DNA of 64,000 bases from Planctomycetota bacterium (GCA_016872725.1 VGZC01000002.1:1-64000), one strand, 5' to 3'. Shown: positions 6,552 through 16,321, counted from the stretch's first letter. Translations and numbers: made by a program. The notes: generated by a model from the letters alone, not told the origin.

Positions 6552-6851
6552 CTAACCCCCCAAGAGTCCGCCCATTCCCATACCCATCGCGCCCCCGATC
6601 CCACCTCCGAACGCCATGCCGGCGGCCGCGCCGACGTTCTTTCCGGCGGTCACCAGTTCGAGTTCCAGATCGGAGAGGCCCTGGTCACTGGACTGCCAGT
6701 TCTCGGGGATTTCAACCCCGTTCCGACGCGCCGCTTGGACGGCCGCGTCAAGACCACCCGTCGCCAGCGCCTGCTCCAGCTCAAAACGCAGCGCTGCGTC
6801 CACCGTCACGCGATCACTCAAGATCCGAAGGGCATTCTGAACCGACGACAT
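6552..6851 (-). CDS. Nif11/NHLP-like RiPP precursor peptide 1
   Basis: A 99-residue precursor. Residues 1-70 form a helical, acidic leader containing GGLDAAVQAARRNGVEIPENW and ending LSDLELELVTAG. This matches the LSDxELExVxGG end of Nif11-like and nitrile-hydratase-like leader peptides. The remaining 29 residues are almost only Gly, Ala, Met and hydrophobics after an initial Lys-Asn, and end GGLLGG: the predicted core. A Gly-type peptidase would cut after A69-G70. The start has AGGAG seven bases upstream. It aligns without gaps to precursor 2 over the leader. The export cassette at 9852-15738 is the likely secretion route. No Cys, and no Ser or Thr, occurs in the core. Confidence 0.8.
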   Translation of the reverse strand: MSSVQNALRILSDRVTVDAALRFELEQALATGGLDAAVQAARRNGVEIPENWQSSDQGLSDLELELVTAGKNVGAAAGMAFGGGIGGAMGMGMGGLLGG

Positions 6852-7223
6852 CGTGTAACTCCTGCCGACAGAGAAAAGGGAACCCATCCCGCCACGCGGC
6901 GGGAATCCACCTGCGATCGAGGCTCGACCGATCGCGATCCGCGGCGTGACGGCAAGGCCCGTCGCCAACCGCCCTTTTTCGATCGTCGATGCCGACAGAC
7001 TATTCAACGAAGGCGCACTTCGGACCGGACACCTTTTCTTGGGATTCACGGAACCGAGGCTCGTACGCGTGTCATGTTTCGCGCGTTTTCCGCGGACTAC
7101 GACTGAAGTCCTCACGCGGACCCAGTCGAACTACGCAAGCAGCAGTCGCTCCGCGCCAAGCCCGGCCGGTCATCGGAGCGACGATGGATGTCTCGATCTT
7201 GACTGGTTCAACCACCCCGCGCC
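6852..7223. other. 372-bp intergenic region between divergent genes
   Basis: It separates the minus-strand precursor 1 from the plus-strand papain-like gene and should hold both promoters. I see no convincing -35/-10 pair. A TTGACT at 7199-7204 lacks a good -10 partner. Confidence 0.4.
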
Positions 7224-8054
7224 ATGCTCCGAATCCACCCATCCCGCGCGTTCCCGCCAAATCGACGTCGCGACCGTCGAGGTTTGGCTCGCGGGAGCGG
7301 CTCGAGTCGTTTGGGATGCGTCGCGGCCGTGTGGTTCGCCGCGTGCCTGATCGTCGGCCCTCCGACGGTCCTCGGCCAGCCGCCCGTGACCGACCCGGGG
7401 CCTGTAGGGTGGATCTGGCACCGCGAATCGGTTCGGCAAGCGCCGACCCCGTATGTTCCCCAGGAAGGCGACCTTCTGTTCTTCAGCGCGCGCGCGCCGC
7501 TGCAGACGGCCGGCTATGTGCTGATCGGGAGCGGCCATCCGCTCCACTGCGGCGTGGTCCTGCGGCAATCGGACGGCGAACTGGGCATCCTGGAATCCGG
7601 CGGCGGCGACGACATGCGAGTCATCATCCGCCCCGTCGACTGGCGGCTCTTGCAATACAACCGGGAGTTCAAGGGATCGGTGATTTGGGTCCGCCCCATC
7701 CGGCGCAGGCTGGACGCCGACGAATCATTCCGGCTGACGCAATTCGCTGAGTCTCAGATCGGGAAACCGTTCGTTTCCAACCTGCGATTCGCGCTGTTCG
7801 CCCTGCCCGGCCGTCCCTTGCCTCCGACAAGGACCGATCAATCGAAGTGGTTCTGTTCCGAAATCGTGGCGGCCACGCTGCGCGAGGCGGGCATTCTGGC
7901 ACCGGGTACGCGAACGAGCGCTCTTGTGCCGACCGATTTGTTCGAGGATAAAACGCTGGACCTGAGCGATCAGTGGCAATCGCCGCATGAATGGACGGCG
8001 GGCCCCGAGCTGCCCGAGAAGCGGCCCTGGTTGGCTCCGAAGCGACCGCGTTGA
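7224..8054 (+). CDS. YiiX-like permuted papain-fold (NlpC/P60) enzyme
   Basis: A 276-residue exported protein. A basic N-terminus is followed by a hydrophobic signal segment (about 31-50). The body fits the permuted NlpC/P60 (YiiX/YebB) pattern: EGDLLFF, then HCGVVLR carrying the catalytic His, and much later KWFCSEIVAATLREAG carrying the catalytic Cys. Members cleave or transfer acyl/amide groups on lipids or peptides; the substrate here is unknown. It lies between the two precursor genes and just before the GNAT gene. A role in peptide maturation or immunity is possible but not shown; it could equally be a cell-envelope housekeeping enzyme. Confidence 0.7.
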   Translation: MLRIHPSRAFPPNRRRDRRGLARGSGSSRLGCVAAVWFAACLIVGPPTVLGQPPVTDPGPVGWIWHRESVRQAPTPYVPQEGDLLFFSARAPLQTAGYVLIGSGHPLHCGVVLRQSDGELGILESGGGDDMRVIIRPVDWRLLQYNREFKGSVIWVRPIRRRLDADESFRLTQFAESQIGKPFVSNLRFALFALPGRPLPPTRTDQSKWFCSEIVAATLREAGILAPGTRTSALVPTDLFEDKTLDLSDQWQSPHEWTAGPELPEKRPWLAPKRPR

Positions 8055-8091
8055 TCCTTCCGAACGGCATCGGCCCCGAACGGCATCGGTC

Positions 8092-9015
8092 ATGAACGAC
8101 GGCGACCTCCACGTGCGACGCCTCGCGTCGGCCGCCGACGCGCTCCCCTTCGCGCCGCTCACCTTCCCCACATTCCACCGCACGCTGTTCGCGTTGGGAC
8201 ACGAGTCGGGCCCGGTCATGCTCGGCGCGTCGCGACGCGGCGAACCGGTGGGGCTCGCCCTCGCGATCGTGAAGTCGGATACGGCTCAACTGCTGTCGTT
8301 GGCCGTCGCGACGCATGCCCGAGGAACGGGCATTGGCGGGAAACTGATGGTCGAGTTGGAGTCGATCCTGCGCGGCGAGGGCGTCGCGCGCATGGAGCTC
8401 AACTTCACCGATCCCAACGCCACATCGGAGGCGTGGCGCCGGCTGTTGCGTCGCGCGGGCTGGAGTGAACCGACGCCCCGCATGCGGTTGTTTACGCTTG
8501 GACGAGGCTCGCTCGAAACGGTCGCCCGGGCTCGGTGGATGAGCCGCCAAGAGCCGCCGGTCGATTGCGCGCTATTTCCGTGGACGGATCTGACATCGGC
8601 GGAGGAAGGTGAACTTCGGGCCGAGGTCGGACCCGATTCCTGGTTTCCGCCCGTGCTCTCCCCGTTCGCGATGGCCGATCCGATCGACGCGCGTCTCAGC
8701 GTGGGATTGCGCTATCAGGGGCGCGTCGCCGGTTGGTTGATCGCGCACCGGATTGCCGAGGGCACCGTGCGCTACACGAGCCTCTTCGTACGTCAAGTGT
8801 CCGGACTGCGCGGCGCGGGACTCGTACTGCTCGCCGAGAGCATACGCCGGCAACTGTCCGATCCGGGCCGCGATGTGGCGGCGACGTTCGGCATCGAGAT
8901 CCAGAATCCTCTTCTGGCGTTCGCCGAACGGCGTCTGATTCCGCACGTCGAGGTCGTGGCGCTGCGGACGTCGTTCACGAGCGGGAAGTGGATCGAGCCC
9001 GGACATGCGTCATGA
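8092..9015 (+). CDS. Tandem-domain GNAT acyltransferase
   Basis: A 307-residue protein with two GNAT-like halves. The first (about 6-140) carries the acyl-CoA pyrophosphate-binding loop as HARGTGIGG (75-83), followed by the alpha-helix KLMVELESIL. The second half (about 150-305) keeps the fold pattern (RYTSLFVRQVSGLRGAG) but lacks a clean RxxGxG loop and may serve substrate binding. The ATG at 8092 is 37 bases after the previous stop. It sits between two RiPP precursor genes and upstream of their export cassette. GNAT enzymes are known to N-acylate lysine or ornithine side chains in some RiPPs of this leader class, so a maturation role is plausible, but this is inference. Confidence 0.75.
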   Translation: MNDGDLHVRRLASAADALPFAPLTFPTFHRTLFALGHESGPVMLGASRRGEPVGLALAIVKSDTAQLLSLAVATHARGTGIGGKLMVELESILRGEGVARMELNFTDPNATSEAWRRLLRRAGWSEPTPRMRLFTLGRGSLETVARARWMSRQEPPVDCALFPWTDLTSAEEGELRAEVGPDSWFPPVLSPFAMADPIDARLSVGLRYQGRVAGWLIAHRIAEGTVRYTSLFVRQVSGLRGAGLVLLAESIRRQLSDPGRDVAATFGIEIQNPLLAFAERRLIPHVEVVALRTSFTSGKWIEPGHAS

Positions 9016-9164
9016 CGGCGTGACGGCGCGACGCCCCCGCATCACCCAGTGCACGGTGCCTCGTCAAGAAACGAACACGCCGCCGAACCAAGGCGGCCCG
9101 GCGGCGCGTCGCTGTTTGCCATTCCCTCGGGAGAAGCGCCCGGCGCCCCGTAACGGATGGACGG

Positions 9165-9437
9165 CTAACCTCCCAAGAGTCCGCCGATTCCCGTGCCGAT
9201 CGCGCCTGCGAGCCCGTAGAACGCCTTGCCGGCCGTCACCAGTTCGAGCTCGGTGTCGGACAATTCGTTCGAATGCGATCTCCAATCGTTGGGGACTTCG
9301 ATTCCGTTTCGGCGAGCGACTTCGACCGCCGCGTCGATACCGCCGCTCGACAGCGCGGATTCGATCTCACAGCGGAAACCGGGTTCCACATCCATCCGAG
9401 CGCGAACCGAACACAGACAATCTTGAACCGTTGCCAT
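9165..9437 (-). CDS. Nif11/NHLP-like RiPP precursor peptide 2
   Basis: A 90-residue paralogue of precursor 1. The leader is again exactly 70 residues, with GGIDAAVEVARRNGIEVPNDW and the end LSDTELELVTAG. The predicted core is 20 residues, beginning Lys-Ala-Phe-Tyr, rich in Gly and hydrophobics, and ending GGLLGG. GAGGAG precedes the ATG at 9437 by nine bases. A minus-strand promoter (9622-9650) lies upstream. Leader similarity with divergent cores is the usual sign of ribosomal peptide natural-product precursors. Leader Cys residues at 7, 9 and 23 are not shared with precursor 1. Confidence 0.82.
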   Translation of the reverse strand: MATVQDCLCSVRARMDVEPGFRCEIESALSSGGIDAAVEVARRNGIEVPNDWRSHSNELSDTELELVTAGKAFYGLAGAIGTGIGGLLGG

Positions 9438-9621
9438 GCGATGCAACTCCTCGACTAGGCACGCCCTCCCTCGCGACGCGCGGCGGTCGCCGAGATCGGG
9501 CGTCGAAAACCGGTTACGATCCACTTCGCAGGTCCCGATGCCGCAACGACGCAACGTCTCCGCCGAACTCGGGCGCCTCCACCACCTCGAACCCGATCCG
9601 GGCGCGCGGTAGTCGTACGCC

Positions 9622-9650
9622 AGTATAGGCCGATTCTGTCGGCGACGCAA
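9622..9650 (-). promoter_or_regulatory. Promoter for precursor 2
   Basis: On the minus strand TTGCGT (9650-9645) and TATACT (9627-9622) are separated by exactly 17 bases. Transcription would start near 9615, giving a leader of about 180 bases before the precursor 2 ATG at 9437. Confidence 0.5.
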
Positions 9651-9700
9651 ATTGCGACGGCGACAGGCGCGAACCGGCGTGGGGCCGGACGGCCCGTTCG

Positions 9701-9729
9701 TTGATCGGCAAGGACCCCAAAGCTAGACT
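9701..9729 (+). promoter_or_regulatory. Promoter for the HlyD-ABC-ABC export operon
   Basis: TTGATC (9701-9706) and TAGACT (9724-9729) are 17 bases apart on the plus strand. Transcription would start near 9736, about 115 bases before the HlyD-type ATG. It is back to back with the precursor 2 promoter, so the 50 bp between the two -35 boxes may hold shared control sites. Confidence 0.5.
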
Positions 9730-9851
9730 TGACCGCCCGCCGCGCGACGAGGACCGCCGCGGCGGCGCGCGGCCATGCACGCGCGCGAACGGCCCGGCTT
9801 CGACCGTGGGTGCGGATCCTCTTGGAGAATGCGGCTCGAGCCGAGCGTTCC

Positions 9852-11354
9852 ATGAGTACCAATCGTAGCGACCGCGCTATGTTTCGCAGGACGGCCCTGA
9901 TGGACGTCGCGGGCGCGGCGCGCGAGGACGCGCCGCTCGCGTTGATGGCCGGCCGCGCCTGGATCGCGCTCGGAGCCCTTCTCCTTCTGTGCGGCACCGC
10001 CGTTGTCTGGTCGCTGATTGGAGCCGTTCCCGTCACGGTCCGGGGCTCCGCCCTATTGTCGCATCCCGGTTCGATCGTCGCGATCGAATCGGCGACGGCC
10101 GGCCCGGTCACGTCGGTCCATGCGCGGCCGGGTGACACGGTCGCGTCAGGCGACCTGCTCGCGCGCGTCGATCAACCGGCTCTCCGCGAGGAACGAAACC
10201 AGGCCCGGATTGTGCTCGACGAATTGCGATCCGCCGACGCGAACCACGCGAAACTCGAAGACGAACAGCTCGACGGCGAAACGCGTTGGCGCGATAGTCA
10301 AACGGCCCTGCTGCTTTCGAGCTCGACGGAGATGGAACGGCTCGCGGACGACTCCGCGGCGCGGAGCGCCGACTGGGCGGCGCGGCAACGTGAACGATTC
10401 GGCCGCATCGAGGAAATGACGAACCGGCTCGTCGCCTCGCTCGATGCGCGTCTTGACGAACTGCGGCGGCTCGCCGATCGCGGGTTGGCGACGCGCGAGC
10501 AGATCGTCGCGGCCGAGTCCGCCGCGATCGACGCGGACCGTTCCCGTTCCGCGTACGAATCGCAAGCCTCGGATACGGCGATCCAGGAACAGGAATCCCG
10601 GCAATTCGTATTCGACCGAAGGAACCGGGCCGCCGAATTGCGTCTGGAATCAAGCCAGGTGGAACTGCGTTGGAAGAAACTCCAACAGGAGATCGTTCTC
10701 GCGCGGAATGAACGCTCGCGGCAAATCGAACTGCGGCGGGAACGCGTCGCGTCGCTCGACCGGAGGCTCGCCGAATCGTCCGAGATCCGCGCCGCGCACT
10801 CGGGACGCGTGCTCGAATGGCATGTGGAAGTCGGCCGAACAGTCGGGCCGGGCATGGCGCTTGGCTCGCTGGCCCGCGACCGCGGCCCGGCGGCCGAGTC
10901 GGAACGCCTTCGCGCGCTTGCCTATTTCCCATTGAGCGATGGAAAGCGGATCGCGCCGGGAATGGACGTGCTCGTGACGCCGAGCACGGAGAAGCGCGAA
11001 CGGTACGGCGGCATTCGAGGAACGGTATGGAAGGTCGCCGAGTTCCCGACGACGCGGGCCGCCGCGTCCGCCGCGCTGGGCAGCGACGACGTCGTCCAGG
11101 GGCTCGCCGCGCCCGGCGGCATGCTCGAAGTGGAAATCGCATTGCGGACGGCCTCCACCCAAAGCGGCTACGACTGGACGACGAGCGGGCCTCCCGCGCC
11201 GCCAACCGCCGGTACGATGGCGTCGGCCCGCGTGGTGGTCGAACGCCGGACTCCGTTGTCGTTCCTGGTGCCGCATGTCCGCGCGTGGTTGCTCGGTCCC
11301 GATCCCGACGCGGCGCGCGACGAAAACGCCCGTTCGAGCGGAACCTCTTACTGA
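9852..11354 (+). CDS. NHLM-type HlyD membrane fusion protein
   Basis: A 500-residue periplasmic adaptor. It opens with MFRRTALMDVAG and one membrane segment (about 45-65, ending WSLIGAVPVTVRG), the pattern of NHLM bacteriocin secretion proteins. A lipoyl-like half-motif (AGPVTSVHARPGDTVASGDLLARV), a long coiled-coil hairpin (about 115-325) and the second lipoyl half (AHSGRVLEWHVEVGRTV) follow, then a C-terminal beta domain. It should link the inner-membrane ABC transporters to an outer-membrane channel. The downstream transporter starts 15 bp later. The frame stays open upstream, but the ATG at 9852 best fits the family N-terminus. Confidence 0.88.
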   Translation: MSTNRSDRAMFRRTALMDVAGAAREDAPLALMAGRAWIALGALLLLCGTAVVWSLIGAVPVTVRGSALLSHPGSIVAIESATAGPVTSVHARPGDTVASGDLLARVDQPALREERNQARIVLDELRSADANHAKLEDEQLDGETRWRDSQTALLLSSSTEMERLADDSAARSADWAARQRERFGRIEEMTNRLVASLDARLDELRRLADRGLATREQIVAAESAAIDADRSRSAYESQASDTAIQEQESRQFVFDRRNRAAELRLESSQVELRWKKLQQEIVLARNERSRQIELRRERVASLDRRLAESSEIRAAHSGRVLEWHVEVGRTVGPGMALGSLARDRGPAAESERLRALAYFPLSDGKRIAPGMDVLVTPSTEKRERYGGIRGTVWKVAEFPTTRAAASAALGSDDVVQGLAAPGGMLEVEIALRTASTQSGYDWTTSGPPAPPTAGTMASARVVVERRTPLSFLVPHVRAWLLGPDPDAARDENARSSGTSY

Positions 11355-11369
11355 AGGCGGACGAACGCG

Positions 11370-13577
11370 ATGCGGACCCGTCGGAACGTCCGAACGCCGA
11401 CCCTCCTGCAGCTCGACGCCGCCGAATGCGGCGCCGCGTGCCTCGGGATCGTCCTCGCGCATTACGGGCGCCATGTACCACTCGCCGAACTGCGCCGCGA
11501 CTGCGGCGTATCGCGGGACGGAAGCCGCGCGAGCAATGTCGTGCGCGCCGCTCGCTTGCACGGGCTCGACGCGCGCGGCATGAAACGCGATGTGGACGAA
11601 CTGCGGGGCGTCCACAAACCGCTCATCGCGCACTGGCAATTCAATCATTTCGTCGTCGTCGAATCGATCGGGGGGCGCCATGTTCGATTGAATGACCCGC
11701 GATTCGGCCATGTGCGGGTGTCGCGGGACGAGTTCGATCGGTCGTTTACCGGCGTGGCGCTCGAATTCGCGCCGAACGCCGCATTCGAACGCCGCGGGAA
11801 GCCGGTCCGCCTGCTCCGATCGCTCGCCCCGCGCATCTGGACGCATCGACGATCGCTCGCCTTCGGCACACTCGCCGGATGGCTGCTCGTCATCCCCTCG
11901 CTCGTCCTTTCGGGGTGCGCGGGCGCGTTCATCGACGGCGTCTTGATCGAAGGCCAACGAAGCTGGATGCGGCCCCTGGTCTGGATTCTGCTCGCGGCGG
12001 CGGCCGTCCAATGGGTCGTTCTCGGCCTGCAGCGCCGCGGCCTTCGGCTCGCCTATCGCTCGGCGATCCGAACCGAAACGGCCGAACTCGTCGATCGTCT
12101 GCTCCGGTTGCCGCTCGCCTTTTTCACGCAGCGGCAATCCGGCGAGATCGCCAACCGGATCCAGTACGCGGAACATGTCGGCGAGTTGTTGACGCACCGG
12201 GTCGCCGACTCGGGGATCGAGTTCGGTTCGATGGTGGCCTACTTCGCGGCCATGTCATGGATCGCGCCGCCGCTCGCGGCCGCCACCGGCGTTCTGGCCG
12301 CGTTCAACGCCCTCGCGCTGCTCGTCGCGTTCCGGAAACGCACCGAGGTCAGTCAGCGCATCGCGCGCGCGGAGGGCCGCTGGGTCGGCGCGTCGCTGAT
12401 CGGTGTTCAGATGATCGAACCGATGAAGGCGGGCGGCATGGAGTCGGGCTATGTCGCCAAGTGGAGCGGCTACCAGCGGGAATCCGCCGGCGCGAGGCAG
12501 GAGCTCGAACGGTCCGTCATCGGATTGGAAACGCTGCCCGGATTGACCGAACGGCTCGCCCTCACGACGCTGCTGTGCCTTGGCGGCTATTTCGTCATGC
12601 GGGGTTCGATGACGGTCGGATCGCTCGTCGCCTTCCAGATCCTCCTCGCGCGGTTCTCGGCTCCCCTCCAGTCGCTCGTCGCGCTCGCCGCGGAGTGGCA
12701 GACAGCGCACGCCGACTTCCTGCGCCTCGACGATGTCCGGAACAGCGCGACGGACCCGCTTTCCGAGGACGATCGACGGGAATCGCGGTCCGACGCGGCG
12801 GCATCAACGGCCGCATCCGCCGACTCGTTCGGCTCGCCCGGGCACGCGGTCGCGCTGTCCGACGTGACGTTCGGCTACGGGCCCCTCGATCCACCCCTTC
12901 TCGACGGCATCCAACTTGCCCTTCGACCGGGCGAGTGCCTTGCGGTCGTGGGGGGCAGCGGTTCGGGCAAATCGACCCTCGCGCGGCTCGTGTGCGGGCT
13001 GCACGCGCCATGGAAAGGCAAGATCCTCCACGACGGACGGGCGCTGTCCGACATGGCGAGGTCCGAGCGCGTCCGGCGCATCGCGTACGTCGATCAGGAC
13101 GTGATGCTGTTCGCCGGTTCGATCCGCGACAATCTCTCGCTTTGGAACGGCGGGTTTTCGGACGAGGCTCTCTGGGAGGCGTGCGACGACGCGTGCATCG
13201 GCGACGTCGTGCGCGGCGTTCCCGGCCAACTCGATGCGCCGCTCCGCGAGAACGGCGCCAATCTCAGCGGAGGCGAACGGCAGCGGATCGAGCTCGCCCG
13301 CGCGTTCGCGTGCCGACCGTCGCTGCTGGTGCTGGATGAAGCCATGAGCGCGCTCGACGGGCCCACCGAGGCGCGCGTGATCGAGTCGATCCGGCGCCGC
13401 GGCTGCACGACGATCCTGATCACGCACCGCATCGAAGCCGCGCAAACATGCGACGCGATCCTCGTACTGGAGCAAGGCCGCATCCGAGGCCTGGGCACGC
13501 ACGACCGGTTGCGGGCGGCGTGCGCCGAGTACGGGCGGCTTCTCGGAACCGCGTCTCCCTCCCCTCGCACGGACTGA
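11370..13577 (+). CDS. NHLM-type ABC transporter with C39 leader peptidase
   Basis: A 735-residue transporter-peptidase. Residues 1-135 are a C39 peptidase with Q14, C20 (LDAAECGAAC), H93 (WQFNHF) and D109 (LNDP), which cuts leaders after a double-glycine-type site. A six-helix membrane domain spans about 150-450. The ATPase carries GGSGSGKST, LSGGERQR and LLVLDEAMSALD. It resembles the peptidase/ATP-binding transporter of NHLM bacteriocin systems. All key residues are present, so it should be able to cleave the two VTAG-ending leaders encoded at 6.5 and 9.2 kb and export the cores. The next transporter starts seven bases downstream. Confidence 0.92.
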   Translation: MRTRRNVRTPTLLQLDAAECGAACLGIVLAHYGRHVPLAELRRDCGVSRDGSRASNVVRAARLHGLDARGMKRDVDELRGVHKPLIAHWQFNHFVVVESIGGRHVRLNDPRFGHVRVSRDEFDRSFTGVALEFAPNAAFERRGKPVRLLRSLAPRIWTHRRSLAFGTLAGWLLVIPSLVLSGCAGAFIDGVLIEGQRSWMRPLVWILLAAAAVQWVVLGLQRRGLRLAYRSAIRTETAELVDRLLRLPLAFFTQRQSGEIANRIQYAEHVGELLTHRVADSGIEFGSMVAYFAAMSWIAPPLAAATGVLAAFNALALLVAFRKRTEVSQRIARAEGRWVGASLIGVQMIEPMKAGGMESGYVAKWSGYQRESAGARQELERSVIGLETLPGLTERLALTTLLCLGGYFVMRGSMTVGSLVAFQILLARFSAPLQSLVALAAEWQTAHADFLRLDDVRNSATDPLSEDDRRESRSDAAASTAASADSFGSPGHAVALSDVTFGYGPLDPPLLDGIQLALRPGECLAVVGGSGSGKSTLARLVCGLHAPWKGKILHDGRALSDMARSERVRRIAYVDQDVMLFAGSIRDNLSLWNGGFSDEALWEACDDACIGDVVRGVPGQLDAPLRENGANLSGGERQRIELARAFACRPSLLVLDEAMSALDGPTEARVIESIRRRGCTTILITHRIEAAQTCDAILVLEQGRIRGLGTHDRLRAACAEYGRLLGTASPSPRTD

Positions 13578-13584
13578 CCGTTTT

Positions 13585-15738
13585 ATGTCATCCCATTCCG
13601 AACCGACGCCCGAGATGCCCGCGAGTTTGCGGGCGCGAGCCGCGCCGACGGAAGGCGATGCGCCCGCGGCGCGCGATTGGAACCGGGTCACGAACGACGA
13701 TCTCGCGGGCGCCCTCGCGGGGCTTTCCAGGCCACTCGGCGTTCCGGTCCGGCGCCCCCGCGCGGCGCCCGGCCCGGTCGACGTCGATCCGGTCTCGCTC
13801 GCCGAATCGATCGGCCTGATCGCGCGGCGCGTCGAGCTACCCGATCGCTGGTGGCGAGCGGACCGCGGACCACTCGTCGTGCTCGCGGGCGACTCCGATC
13901 CGCCGCGGCCCGTTGCCTTGATTCGGAGGGGCGGGCGGTACCGGATCGTCGGTCCCGACGGTCGCCCGTCGCGCGCGATCCGCGGGCGCGAGGCGCGGAG
14001 CGTACGGGCGAGCGCGCTGAGCCTCGCGGCGCCGCTTCCCGAATCGCCGGTCACCCTCGTTCGGGCCGCACGGTTCGCGATTCGGCCTTGGCGGGCCGAC
14101 ACCGCGCGGCTCGCCCTGTTCCTCGCCATCTTCGGCGCGCTCGGATTGTCGGTTCCGATCGCCAATCGGCGGATCATCGATCAGGCGATACCCGACGCCG
14201 ACTGGGCGCTTGTCGTTCAAATCGCCGGATTGCTGGTCGCCGTGAATCTCGCGCAGGCCGCGTGCCATCTCGTCGCGCGGCGCCACCACGTTCGAGTCAT
14301 CACGGGCGCGATCGTCCGGTTGCAACTGGCCACGTGGCACCGATTGATCCAGTTGCCCGGCGGTTTTTTCCGCGATCAAAGCGGCGGGGATCTCGTCCAT
14401 CGGGGTCTCGCGGTCACCGCGATGGGCCAGCAGCTCGGCTCCGTCGTCATCCACTCGGCGGTCGCCGCCGCGATCGGATTCGGCGCGGCCGCCATGCTCG
14501 TCTGGATCCAGCCCATGCTCGCTCTCGTGGCGTTCGCATTCGGCGCGCTCGAGGCGGGAATCACCGCGCTCGTTTCATGGCGCGTGCATGGCGCGACGAT
14601 GCGGCTGGAGCGATTGCGGGCCGAGCTGCTTGGCACGCTCGTTCCGATTGTGCAAGGCATCGCCAAACTGCGGGTCGCGGGCGCGGAGTCCCGCGCCGCG
14701 TCGCAGTGGTGGCCGACCTTCGAACGGCACTTGGCCCTGCTCGACAATCGCCAGTGGTGGCTCGACCAGCTTCGCATCGCGGCGTCGACGGTTCCCGCGG
14801 TGGCGAGCGTCGCGATCTACAGCGCGGTCCACCGACGGTCGAACGCCGGACCCGATCCGGCCATGTCGCTCGGAGGTCTGATGGCGTTCTTGACCACGTA
14901 TGGACTCTTCGCGCACGGCCTGGCGTCAATCGGCAAATTGGCGACGACCGCGACCCAGGCCCTTTCGCTCGAACGGCTCGTCCGACCCATCTGGCATGGC
15001 GAACCGGAAGTCACGGCCGGCAGCGCGGCGCCGGGTCGATTGCGGGGCCGAGTCCGACTCCACGACGTTGCGTTCCGATATCACGACGAGGGGCCGCGGG
15101 TACTTGAGAACGTGTCATTCGAGATCGCGCCGGGCGAGTTTGTGGCCATCACCGGCCCGTCCGGCGGCGGCAAGTCGTCACTGATCCGCCTCCTGCTCGG
15201 CCTCGCGCGGCCCGTCGAGGGGATCGTCTCGTACGACGGCCATGACTTGTCGCGGCTTGACGCGCGGGCCGTGCGCCGCCAGATCGGAAGCGTGCTGCAA
15301 CAGTCGGCCGTGTTCGCCGGCACGCTTTTCGACAACATCGCGGGAGGCCGCGCGATCACGATGGATGAGGCATGGGCGGCCTGCGTTGAAGCGGAACTCG
15401 CCGACGATATCGCGGCGTTCCCCATGGGGATGTACACGCTGGTGGCCGATCGCGGAGCCAACCTATCGGGCGGGCAGCGCCAGCGCCTGCTCATCGCCAG
15501 GGCCTTGGTCGGAGCTCCCGCCGTCGTCGTGTTTGACGAGGCGACCAGCGCGCTCAGCCCCGATGCGCAGCAACGCATCATGGACCGGCTCGCGCGCCGC
15601 AACGTGACGCGAGTCGTCGTCGCCCATCGTATGGACGCCGTCCGCGACGCCGACCGAATGCTCGTCGTGGACCATGGCCGAGTCGTCGAATCGAAGGAGC
15701 ACCCAGCACCCTTTGGCCGAAGGCCAAATTCACCGTAG
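13585..15738 (+). CDS. NHLM-type second ABC transporter, tail replaced by REP
   Basis: A 717-residue ABC protein with no peptidase. Residues 1-150 form the variable N-terminal region seen in the second NHLM transporter (DRWWRADRGPLVVL, SPVTLVRAARFAIRPW). A membrane domain (about 165-445) and an ATPase with GPSGGGKSS, LSGGQRQR and VVVFDEATSAL follow. After DHGRVVESKEH the last codons are read from a REP palindrome (APFGRRPNSP), so roughly the last 20 residues expected for the family are missing. The ATPase core is complete, so function may survive. Likely partner of the C39 transporter. Confidence 0.9.
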   Translation: MSSHSEPTPEMPASLRARAAPTEGDAPAARDWNRVTNDDLAGALAGLSRPLGVPVRRPRAAPGPVDVDPVSLAESIGLIARRVELPDRWWRADRGPLVVLAGDSDPPRPVALIRRGGRYRIVGPDGRPSRAIRGREARSVRASALSLAAPLPESPVTLVRAARFAIRPWRADTARLALFLAIFGALGLSVPIANRRIIDQAIPDADWALVVQIAGLLVAVNLAQAACHLVARRHHVRVITGAIVRLQLATWHRLIQLPGGFFRDQSGGDLVHRGLAVTAMGQQLGSVVIHSAVAAAIGFGAAAMLVWIQPMLALVAFAFGALEAGITALVSWRVHGATMRLERLRAELLGTLVPIVQGIAKLRVAGAESRAASQWWPTFERHLALLDNRQWWLDQLRIAASTVPAVASVAIYSAVHRRSNAGPDPAMSLGGLMAFLTTYGLFAHGLASIGKLATTATQALSLERLVRPIWHGEPEVTAGSAAPGRLRGRVRLHDVAFRYHDEGPRVLENVSFEIAPGEFVAITGPSGGGKSSLIRLLLGLARPVEGIVSYDGHDLSRLDARAVRRQIGSVLQQSAVFAGTLFDNIAGGRAITMDEAWAACVEAELADDIAAFPMGMYTLVADRGANLSGGQRQRLLIARALVGAPAVVVFDEATSALSPDAQQRIMDRLARRNVTRVVVAHRMDAVRDADRMLVVDHGRVVESKEHPAPFGRRPNSP

Positions 15739-15826
15739 CCAGGGGCAACGCCCCAGGAATCGTTTGGCCCCACGGCACCCTTTGGCCGAAGGCCAAATTC
15801 ACCGTAGCCTGGGGCAACGCCCCAGG
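15706..15826. repeat. Two direct REP-like elements left of the RAYT gene
   Basis: Two near-identical 52-bp copies (15706-15757 and 15775-15826) differ at one base. Each holds two perfect hairpins: TTTGGCC-GAA-GGCCAAA, and a GGGGC-AAC-GCCCC hairpin, extended to CCTGGGGC in the second copy. They lie next to a REP-associated transposase gene. The first copy overlaps the 3-prime end of the second ABC transporter gene. Confidence 0.85.
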
Positions 15827-15868: not shown

Positions 15869-16321
15869 ATGCCACAGTCCCTGACGAAACTCTATGCCCA
15901 TTTGGTTTTCAGCACGAAGTACCGCGAACCATTTCTGGATGAGAGAATTCGGTCTCGTGTCCATGGCTATCTCGCGACCGTGATCCGCGACTTGGATTCA
16001 CCCTGGGTCGTCGTCGGTGGCGTGGTCGATCACGTTCCTATCTTGTTTGACATGGGCAAAATGGTGGCACCCGTCAAGTTCGTTGAGCAAGTGAAACGCG
16101 AGTCGTCCAAGTTCGTCAAGACGCTTGGCACCCCGTACACGAAGTTCTACTGGCAACGTGGTTACGGGATGTTTTCGGTTGGCCCCATGGATCGCGACCA
16201 AGCAGAACATTATGTTCGCAATCAGGAGGAGCACCATCGACGAACGACCTTTCAGGACGAATATCGGTCGATGCTGACGCGCTACGGCATTGAGTTCGAC
16301 GAACAGTACGTCTGGGATTAG
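15869..16321 (+). mobile_element. REP-associated (IS200-like) Y1 transposase, altered HUH
   Basis: A 150-residue Y1/HUH transposase of the IS200/RAYT type. It shows LYAHLVFSTKYRE at the start, YWQRGYGMFSV in the middle, the catalytic Tyr candidate Y115 in HYVRNQEEHH, and the ending YGIEFDEQYVWD. The metal-binding HUH motif, normally DHVHILF, reads DHVPILF: H55 is kept but the second His is P57, a change explicable by one base (CAT/CAC to CCT/CCC). Catalysis is therefore doubtful. REP-like hairpins flank it in opposite orientations. It interrupts the 3-prime end of the peptide-export operon. Confidence 0.9.

Follow-up and report, generated by a model that had tools for sequence, protein, structure and literature searches.

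A candidate ring-free, lysine-acylated Nif11/NHLM lipopeptide system with paired glycine-rich cores in a Planctomycetota bacterium

Few lipidated ribosomal peptides are known, and the characterized members with Nif11 or NHLP leaders in the literature cited here are lanthipeptides. In the nostolysamides, the tandem GNAT acyltransferase NpuN acylates Lys1 of a core that follows a Nif11 leader (PMC13060382). Here, we analyzed a stretch of 64,000 nucleotides (nt) from a Planctomycetota bacterium (GCA_016872725.1, VGZC01000002.1:1-64000; hereafter the window), in which a precursor pair (P1 and P2) with a common leader motif, an NHLM-type exporter, and a tandem GNAT are directly visible; the genomic linkage of the GNAT is likewise seen in sequence. 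An earlier note, made without database searches, had proposed an NHLM-type system with two Nif11-like precursors at this locus. We consider it moderately probable that the locus encodes a two-peptide, ring-free, putatively Lys-acylated Nif11/NHLM lipopeptide system that was probably acquired horizontally.

Features of this locus recur in described systems. The nostolysamides and selidamides (NpuA-NpuN, phaeornamide, and kamptornamide) share with it a Nif11 or NHLP leader, a C39 exporter, and a tandem GNAT, with NpuN acting on Lys1 in nostolysamide (PMC13060382, PMC9505594). In the three-gene NHLM system described with NHLP/Nif11 precursors by Haft et al. 2010 (PMC2887384), an HlyD protein, a C39-ABC transporter, and a second ABC transporter likewise occur together with a Nif11-type leader. 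Cyanobacterial double-glycine bacteriocin clusters (Wang et al. 2011, PMC3140520) encode diverse and often glycine-rich cores behind N11P leaders, with HlyD and C39-ABC genes adjacent. The Caulobacter Cdz system (PMC5380434) likewise consists of two small hydrophobic glycine-zipper peptides that undergo type I export.

Precursors and their glycine-rich cores

P1 (6552-6851, minus strand) comprises a 70-residue Nif11-like leader ending LSDLELELVTAG and a 29-residue core, KNVGAAAGMAFGGGIGGAMGMGMGGLLGG; P2 (9165-9437, minus strand) comprises a 70-residue Nif11-like leader ending LSDTELELVTAG and a 20-residue core, KAFYGLAGAIGTGIGGLLGG. Ribosome-binding sites lie shortly 5' of each start codon (AGGAG before the ATG at 6851 for P1, GAGGAG before the ATG of P2), codon-usage scores are positive for both, and both frames are intact. 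The two small genes proposed earlier are real, save that the P1 frame had been drawn overlong from a GTG at 7115; the most likely start is the ATG at 6851. Neither gene had a further match anywhere in its own 5.24-Mb assembly, and no relatives were found in 59 related genomes, in plasmids, or in viral contigs. A scan of genome contigs for precursor relatives retrieved five loci (L030-L034), all one protein, presumably an M32 carboxypeptidase, and these were rejected as spurious. The local LRFELEQALxTGxLD helix that this protein has in common with the precursor leader is probably a chance likeness selected by the search pattern.

The leaders of P1 and P2 share 54% identity in a gap-free alignment of 71 residues (BLASTP, E 1e-27), which bears out the reported gap-free leader ending LSDxELELVTAG and followed by a core that starts with Lys. 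Against TIGR03798 (leader_Nif11), P2 scored 14.1 bits over residues 14-70 (cut-off 32.3) and P1 was unmatched; neither precursor matched the Pfam Nif11 model (PF07862). Because the leaders fell under these cut-offs, they were compared profile to profile with Nif11 leaders of the phylum, using Nif11 precursors gathered from NHLM-bearing genomes. The hhalign match covered columns 8-70, nearly the whole leader (probability 94.4%, E 9.5e-8), and among approximately 10,000 shuffled leaders none reached the score of either precursor. The assignment to the Nif11 type fails at the TIGR03798 and PF07862 cut-offs and is supported by the profile-profile match and the GG-type terminus. Recognition by the C39 proteases ComA and LahT involves Leu-12, Glu-8, and Leu-7, with Val-4 in addition for LahT (PMC6363468). 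All four residues are present in P1 and P2. Taking a C39 (double-Gly) substrate to carry L-12, E-8, L-7, and V-4 plus GG, GA, or GS at positions -2/-1, the motif in both leaders is near-exact, with AG at -2/-1. An NHLM-locus precursor from Ensifer likewise ends VTAG.

Both cores start with Lys, whose side chain is the sole amine side chain in each, and glycine accounts for 40-45% of their residues. Core 1 is devoid of Cys, Ser, and Thr; core 2 is devoid of Cys and Ser and contains one Thr. Lanthionine rings are impossible because Cys and Ser are absent from both, and lanthipeptide or other Cys/Ser-based chemistry was rejected since the needed residues are missing. No LanM domain was found among the neighboring genes scanned, the genome beyond them not having been searched for modification enzymes. 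These compositions are consistent with the suggestion that secretion yields glycine-rich peptides distinct from lanthipeptides built on Cys or Ser. The unmodified cores have calculated [M+H]+ values of 2467.17 (core 1) and 1793.00 (core 2), to which a C16:0 acyl group would add 238.23 and a C10:0 group 154.14. Core 2 also contains FYG, which resembles a spliceotide-type XYG motif; this reading was rejected, as P1 has no such motif and no radical SAM protein is encoded among the neighboring genes scanned.

The cores had been described as unrelated, which does not hold. Their C-terminal 16 residues align (GIGGAMGMGMGGLLGG / GLAGAIGTGIGGLLGG), at a score that none of 20,000 shuffles matched; toward their N termini, the cores are set apart by a block of 8-9 residues. 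The DNA of the aligned core end (51 nt) is 84% identical versus 62% for the leader (Fisher P 0.0017). Core-over-leader DNA conservation between P1 and P2 is the reverse of the usual pattern of a conserved leader and a variable core.

Because the cores are hydrophobic and glycine-rich, their sequences suggest membrane action. GxxxG runs number eight in core 1, a modest excess over shuffles (P 0.02), and three in core 2, not above chance; a class IIb-like enrichment in GxxxG was rejected, since the excess over composition is confined to core 1 and is modest there. Elsewhere, a locus in genome G411 (L110, open reading frames from 1362 and 1878) combines an NHLM trio with two neighboring Nif11 precursors whose long cores are rich in Gly and Ala (SHPACTAGGGIQGAICAATGF... 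and ...GIGGGVMIACGIGAVFTMGAAVAASG...).

The main alternative to a lipopeptide system, which we regard as unlikely, is that P1 and P2 form an unmodified two-peptide glycine-zipper bacteriocin of the class IIb or Cdz kind, cleaved and exported by the NHLM machinery and acting as a pair in membranes, with the GNAT serving in immunity or detoxification or being unrelated. Two paralogous small precursors beside a single C39 exporter would fit such a pair, as would the glycine content and the GxxxG runs of the cores. The Caulobacter CdzC/CdzD proteins are glycine-zipper two-protein bacteriocins with type I export and are reported to be probably unmodified (PMC5380434), and the Nif11 leaders of the G411 locus carry cores that are bacteriocin-like. 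However, the GxxxG runs of core 2 do not go beyond its composition, Lys starts both cores, and the genes flanking the precursors include none identified as encoding a small membrane immunity protein.

The NHLM-type exporter operon

A plus-strand operon (9852-15738) comprises genes for an NHLM HlyD-type adaptor (9852-11354; TIGR03794, 252 bits, over the cut-off of 156.2), ABC1, with C39 peptidase, permease, and ATPase domains (11370-13577; TIGR03796, 799 bits, cut-off 853; PF03412, E 1.8e-33), and ABC2, a permease/ATPase (13585-15738; TIGR03797, 596 bits, cut-off 709). The operon had been called an HlyD, C39-ABC, and second ABC trio with C20, H93, and D109 in the peptidase, and these residues were confirmed, as was Q14. 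ABC1 is full length and aligns over nearly its entire length with the solved PCAT1 structure (4ry2). The NHLM-type label was right in that NHLM models are the best matches for all three proteins and the adaptor exceeds its cut-off; ABC1 and ABC2 fall below the strict cut-offs. ABC2 has 717 residues versus open frames of ~900-1000 residues in most other NHLM loci; judged by these open-frame lengths, its N terminus is ~200-250 residues shorter than in most relatives. On homology, the cleavage and export of P1 and P2 by this putative NHLM system is well supported.

Of 396 genomes surveyed from the order, 6 have the NHLM HlyD protein, and this genome is its sole carrier in the family. With ABC2 as query, 2 other genomes of 241 in the family were matched, at 34-45% identity, and no ABC1 was found in viral contigs. 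This patchy exporter distribution suggests that the peptide system was probably acquired horizontally.

Two tandem 69-nt copies of a REP-like repeat (15688-15825) overlap the 3' end of ABC2, whose last residues may derive from the repeat. Beside the repeats, downstream of ABC2, is an IS200-type (Y1) transposase gene (15869-16321). The repeat over the ABC2 end, the adjoining transposase, and the scores of ABC1 and ABC2 under the strict cut-offs would be in keeping with decay or chance, that is, with small open reading frames unrelated to the exporter or with a degenerate system. We find this highly improbable: none of the C39 catalytic residues or of the leader positions used in recognition is lost, each precursor gene has an uninterrupted frame with a ribosome-binding site, and the leaders are conserved far beyond chance expectation.

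The same genome (G000) also encodes a second C39-ABC and HlyD-like pair on contig C20 (L088, 6516-10329). The gene directly ahead of it encodes a microcin-like peptide of 62 residues, MNDVREVSANEAMEIQGG|TWLEWLLDHMVGGATGGAVGYNSHDGFTYEGGGHSVPKKKKNDP, with a short leader of the classic GG type.

The tandem GNAT and its genomic neighborhoods

Between P1 and P2, within the interval covered by the earlier note and unmentioned there, a plus-strand gene (8092-9015) encodes a 307-residue GNAT acyltransferase, a candidate Lys1 acyl maturase. PF00583 matches its N-terminal half (E 2.8e-11), and the protein is described as tandem because its two halves align as profiles (probability 94.6, E 7e-8). Given that this GNAT comes from a family linked to ribosomally synthesized and post-translationally modified peptides and lies in the cluster, a lipidated product is favored over an unmodified one.

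The GNAT family sits beside NHLM-type exporters, in this phylum and in Rhizobiaceae. None was found in the 59 relatives; across 392 sampled genomes of the phylum, homologs (E 1e-8) occur in 5, and all 5 belong to the set of 30 genomes in which an NHLM ABC2 is clearly present (P 1.9e-6 for co-occurrence, P 2.5e-5 without this genome). In G761, 141 nt separate the GNAT from the HlyD frame that follows it; G477 and G554 carry homologs on NHLM contigs, and in G539 the homolog stands beside an NHLM-like ABC gene. On a Shinella plasmid, an NHLM trio lies upstream of the GNAT gene, which itself overlaps a gene for a Nif11 precursor, and on an Ensifer plasmid two GNATs lie among Nif11-type precursors adjoining an NHLM trio. 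This linkage, to NHLM loci in the phylum and to Nif11 precursors in Rhizobiaceae, speaks against the unmodified glycine-zipper pair considered above. A Microcoleus plasmid encodes a GNAT, a C39-ABC transporter, an HlyD protein, and a GG-motif peptide with a core, KGGRGGRGTTLPVAIVVVPLK, that also begins with Lys and is glycine-rich; its GNAT and ABC frames look interrupted. The window's ABC1 groups with a transporter encoded at the GNAT locus of G554 (local support 0.94).

Two of these genomes encode the GNAT as a fusion with an AMP-binding domain of the acyl-activating type and a phosphopantetheine carrier (PP-binding). The G539 fusion (L131, 1961-4951) adjoins NHLM-type transporters, and those of G554 (L132, 5205-8525 and 9031-13506) have both NHLM-type transporters and Nif11 precursors adjacent; one fusion copy has a partial condensation-domain match as well. 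The fusion appears to form a self-contained module for loading acyl groups onto ribosomal peptides, as would be expected of an enzyme that draws on activated fatty acids.

In the lipopeptide system that we favor, P1 and P2 would each be synthesized behind a Nif11-like leader, and the tandem GNAT would transfer a fatty-acyl group to the Lys1 side chain in the cytosol. We infer both this acylation and the chain used. The C39 transporter would then bind the leader helix through Leu-12, Glu-8, Leu-7, and Val-4 and cut after Ala-Gly, and the mature peptide would be exported with the HlyD adaptor and ABC2. The predicted products are linear, very hydrophobic, ring-free glycine-rich lipopeptides of 29 and 20 residues. 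Speculatively, they would most likely act on competitor-cell membranes, singly or paired, or they might be surface-active or signaling lipopeptides.

Several observations weigh against this model. The GNAT gene is on the strand opposite to the precursors, and the protein was likened to NpuN by description and setting, not by sequence; a single-sequence AlphaFold model of it had a mean predicted local distance difference test score of 33 and was discarded. The cleavage pair is Ala-Gly instead of Gly-Gly. Some cores of GNAT-linked precursors in G554 and G761 contain neither Lys nor Arg. Homologs on cyanobacterial plasmids (Nostoc and Gloeothece; L125 8717-10828, L126 8858-10852, L130 8717-10828) are GNATs fused to DUF4915/TIGR03032, directly followed in two of the three by a gene for a large cadherin- or immunoglobulin-like protein, which suggests that these GNATs may acylate other secreted substrates. 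The substrate of the GNAT may therefore vary across the family.

Just upstream of the GNAT, a plus-strand gene (7224-8054) encodes a putative secreted permuted papain-like (YaeF-type) protein, with a weak match to NF008552 (E 0.044) and H-x-G and CSEIV motifs discerned by eye. The gene is patchy (2 of 100 family genomes) and was rejected as a general NHLM component, having no homolog in other NHLM loci. Its position and likewise patchy distribution could fit a different arrangement, in which acylation or acetylation by the GNAT serves self-protection or processing and does not belong to the active product, while the papain-like protein acts outside the cell as a deacylase or amidase. GNATs of natural-product clusters can give self-resistance, but nostolysamide activity was not appreciably changed by NpuN acylation (PMC13060382). 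As other NHLM loci are also without the papain-like gene, we judge such a role improbable. A pattern scan alone placed a terminator-like hairpin 3' of P2 (9074-9110, minus strand; 17 pairs, T-rich tail), the count of such sites being not above shuffled expectation.

Comparison with known systems

More broadly, we tentatively propose, as a possibility, a lanthionine-free branch of GNAT-lipidated Nif11/NHLM peptides with two ring-free glycine-rich peptides that act as a pair, fatty-acylated Lys1, and sister systems that carry GNAT-AMP ligase-carrier fusions beside NHLM exporters. If true, acylation by GNATs operates on plain glycine-rich cores without rings and extends to a phylum for which searches of the open-license literature found no such report. 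The locus would then provide two small lipopeptides, 29 and 20 residues long and encoded in the genome, that are tractable by two-gene co-expression in E. coli; with the fusions found in relatives, the source of the acyl group could be tested as well.

The characterized nostolysamide and selidamide members are lanthipeptides, with LanM and with cores containing Cys, Ser, and Thr, whereas the window encodes two short glycine-rich cores without Cys or Ser. Relative to the NHLM system of Haft et al. 2010 (PMC2887384), the locus is divergent: ABC1, ABC2, and the leaders score below cut-offs, ABC2 is short, and the cleavage motif is AG. Some of the clusters of Wang et al. 2011 include LanM or other tailoring domains, and the portions consulted mention no GNAT linkage (PMC3140520). 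Caulobacter Cdz differs in having a small membrane immunity protein, CdzI, with no GNAT appearing in the sections consulted (PMC5380434). Searches of the open-license literature found no report of this combination of a GNAT with ring-free glycine-rich Nif11 cores. The kinds of exporter and leader, and GNAT lipidation of Nif11 cores, are already known; their combination with two ring-free glycine-rich cores appears to be new.

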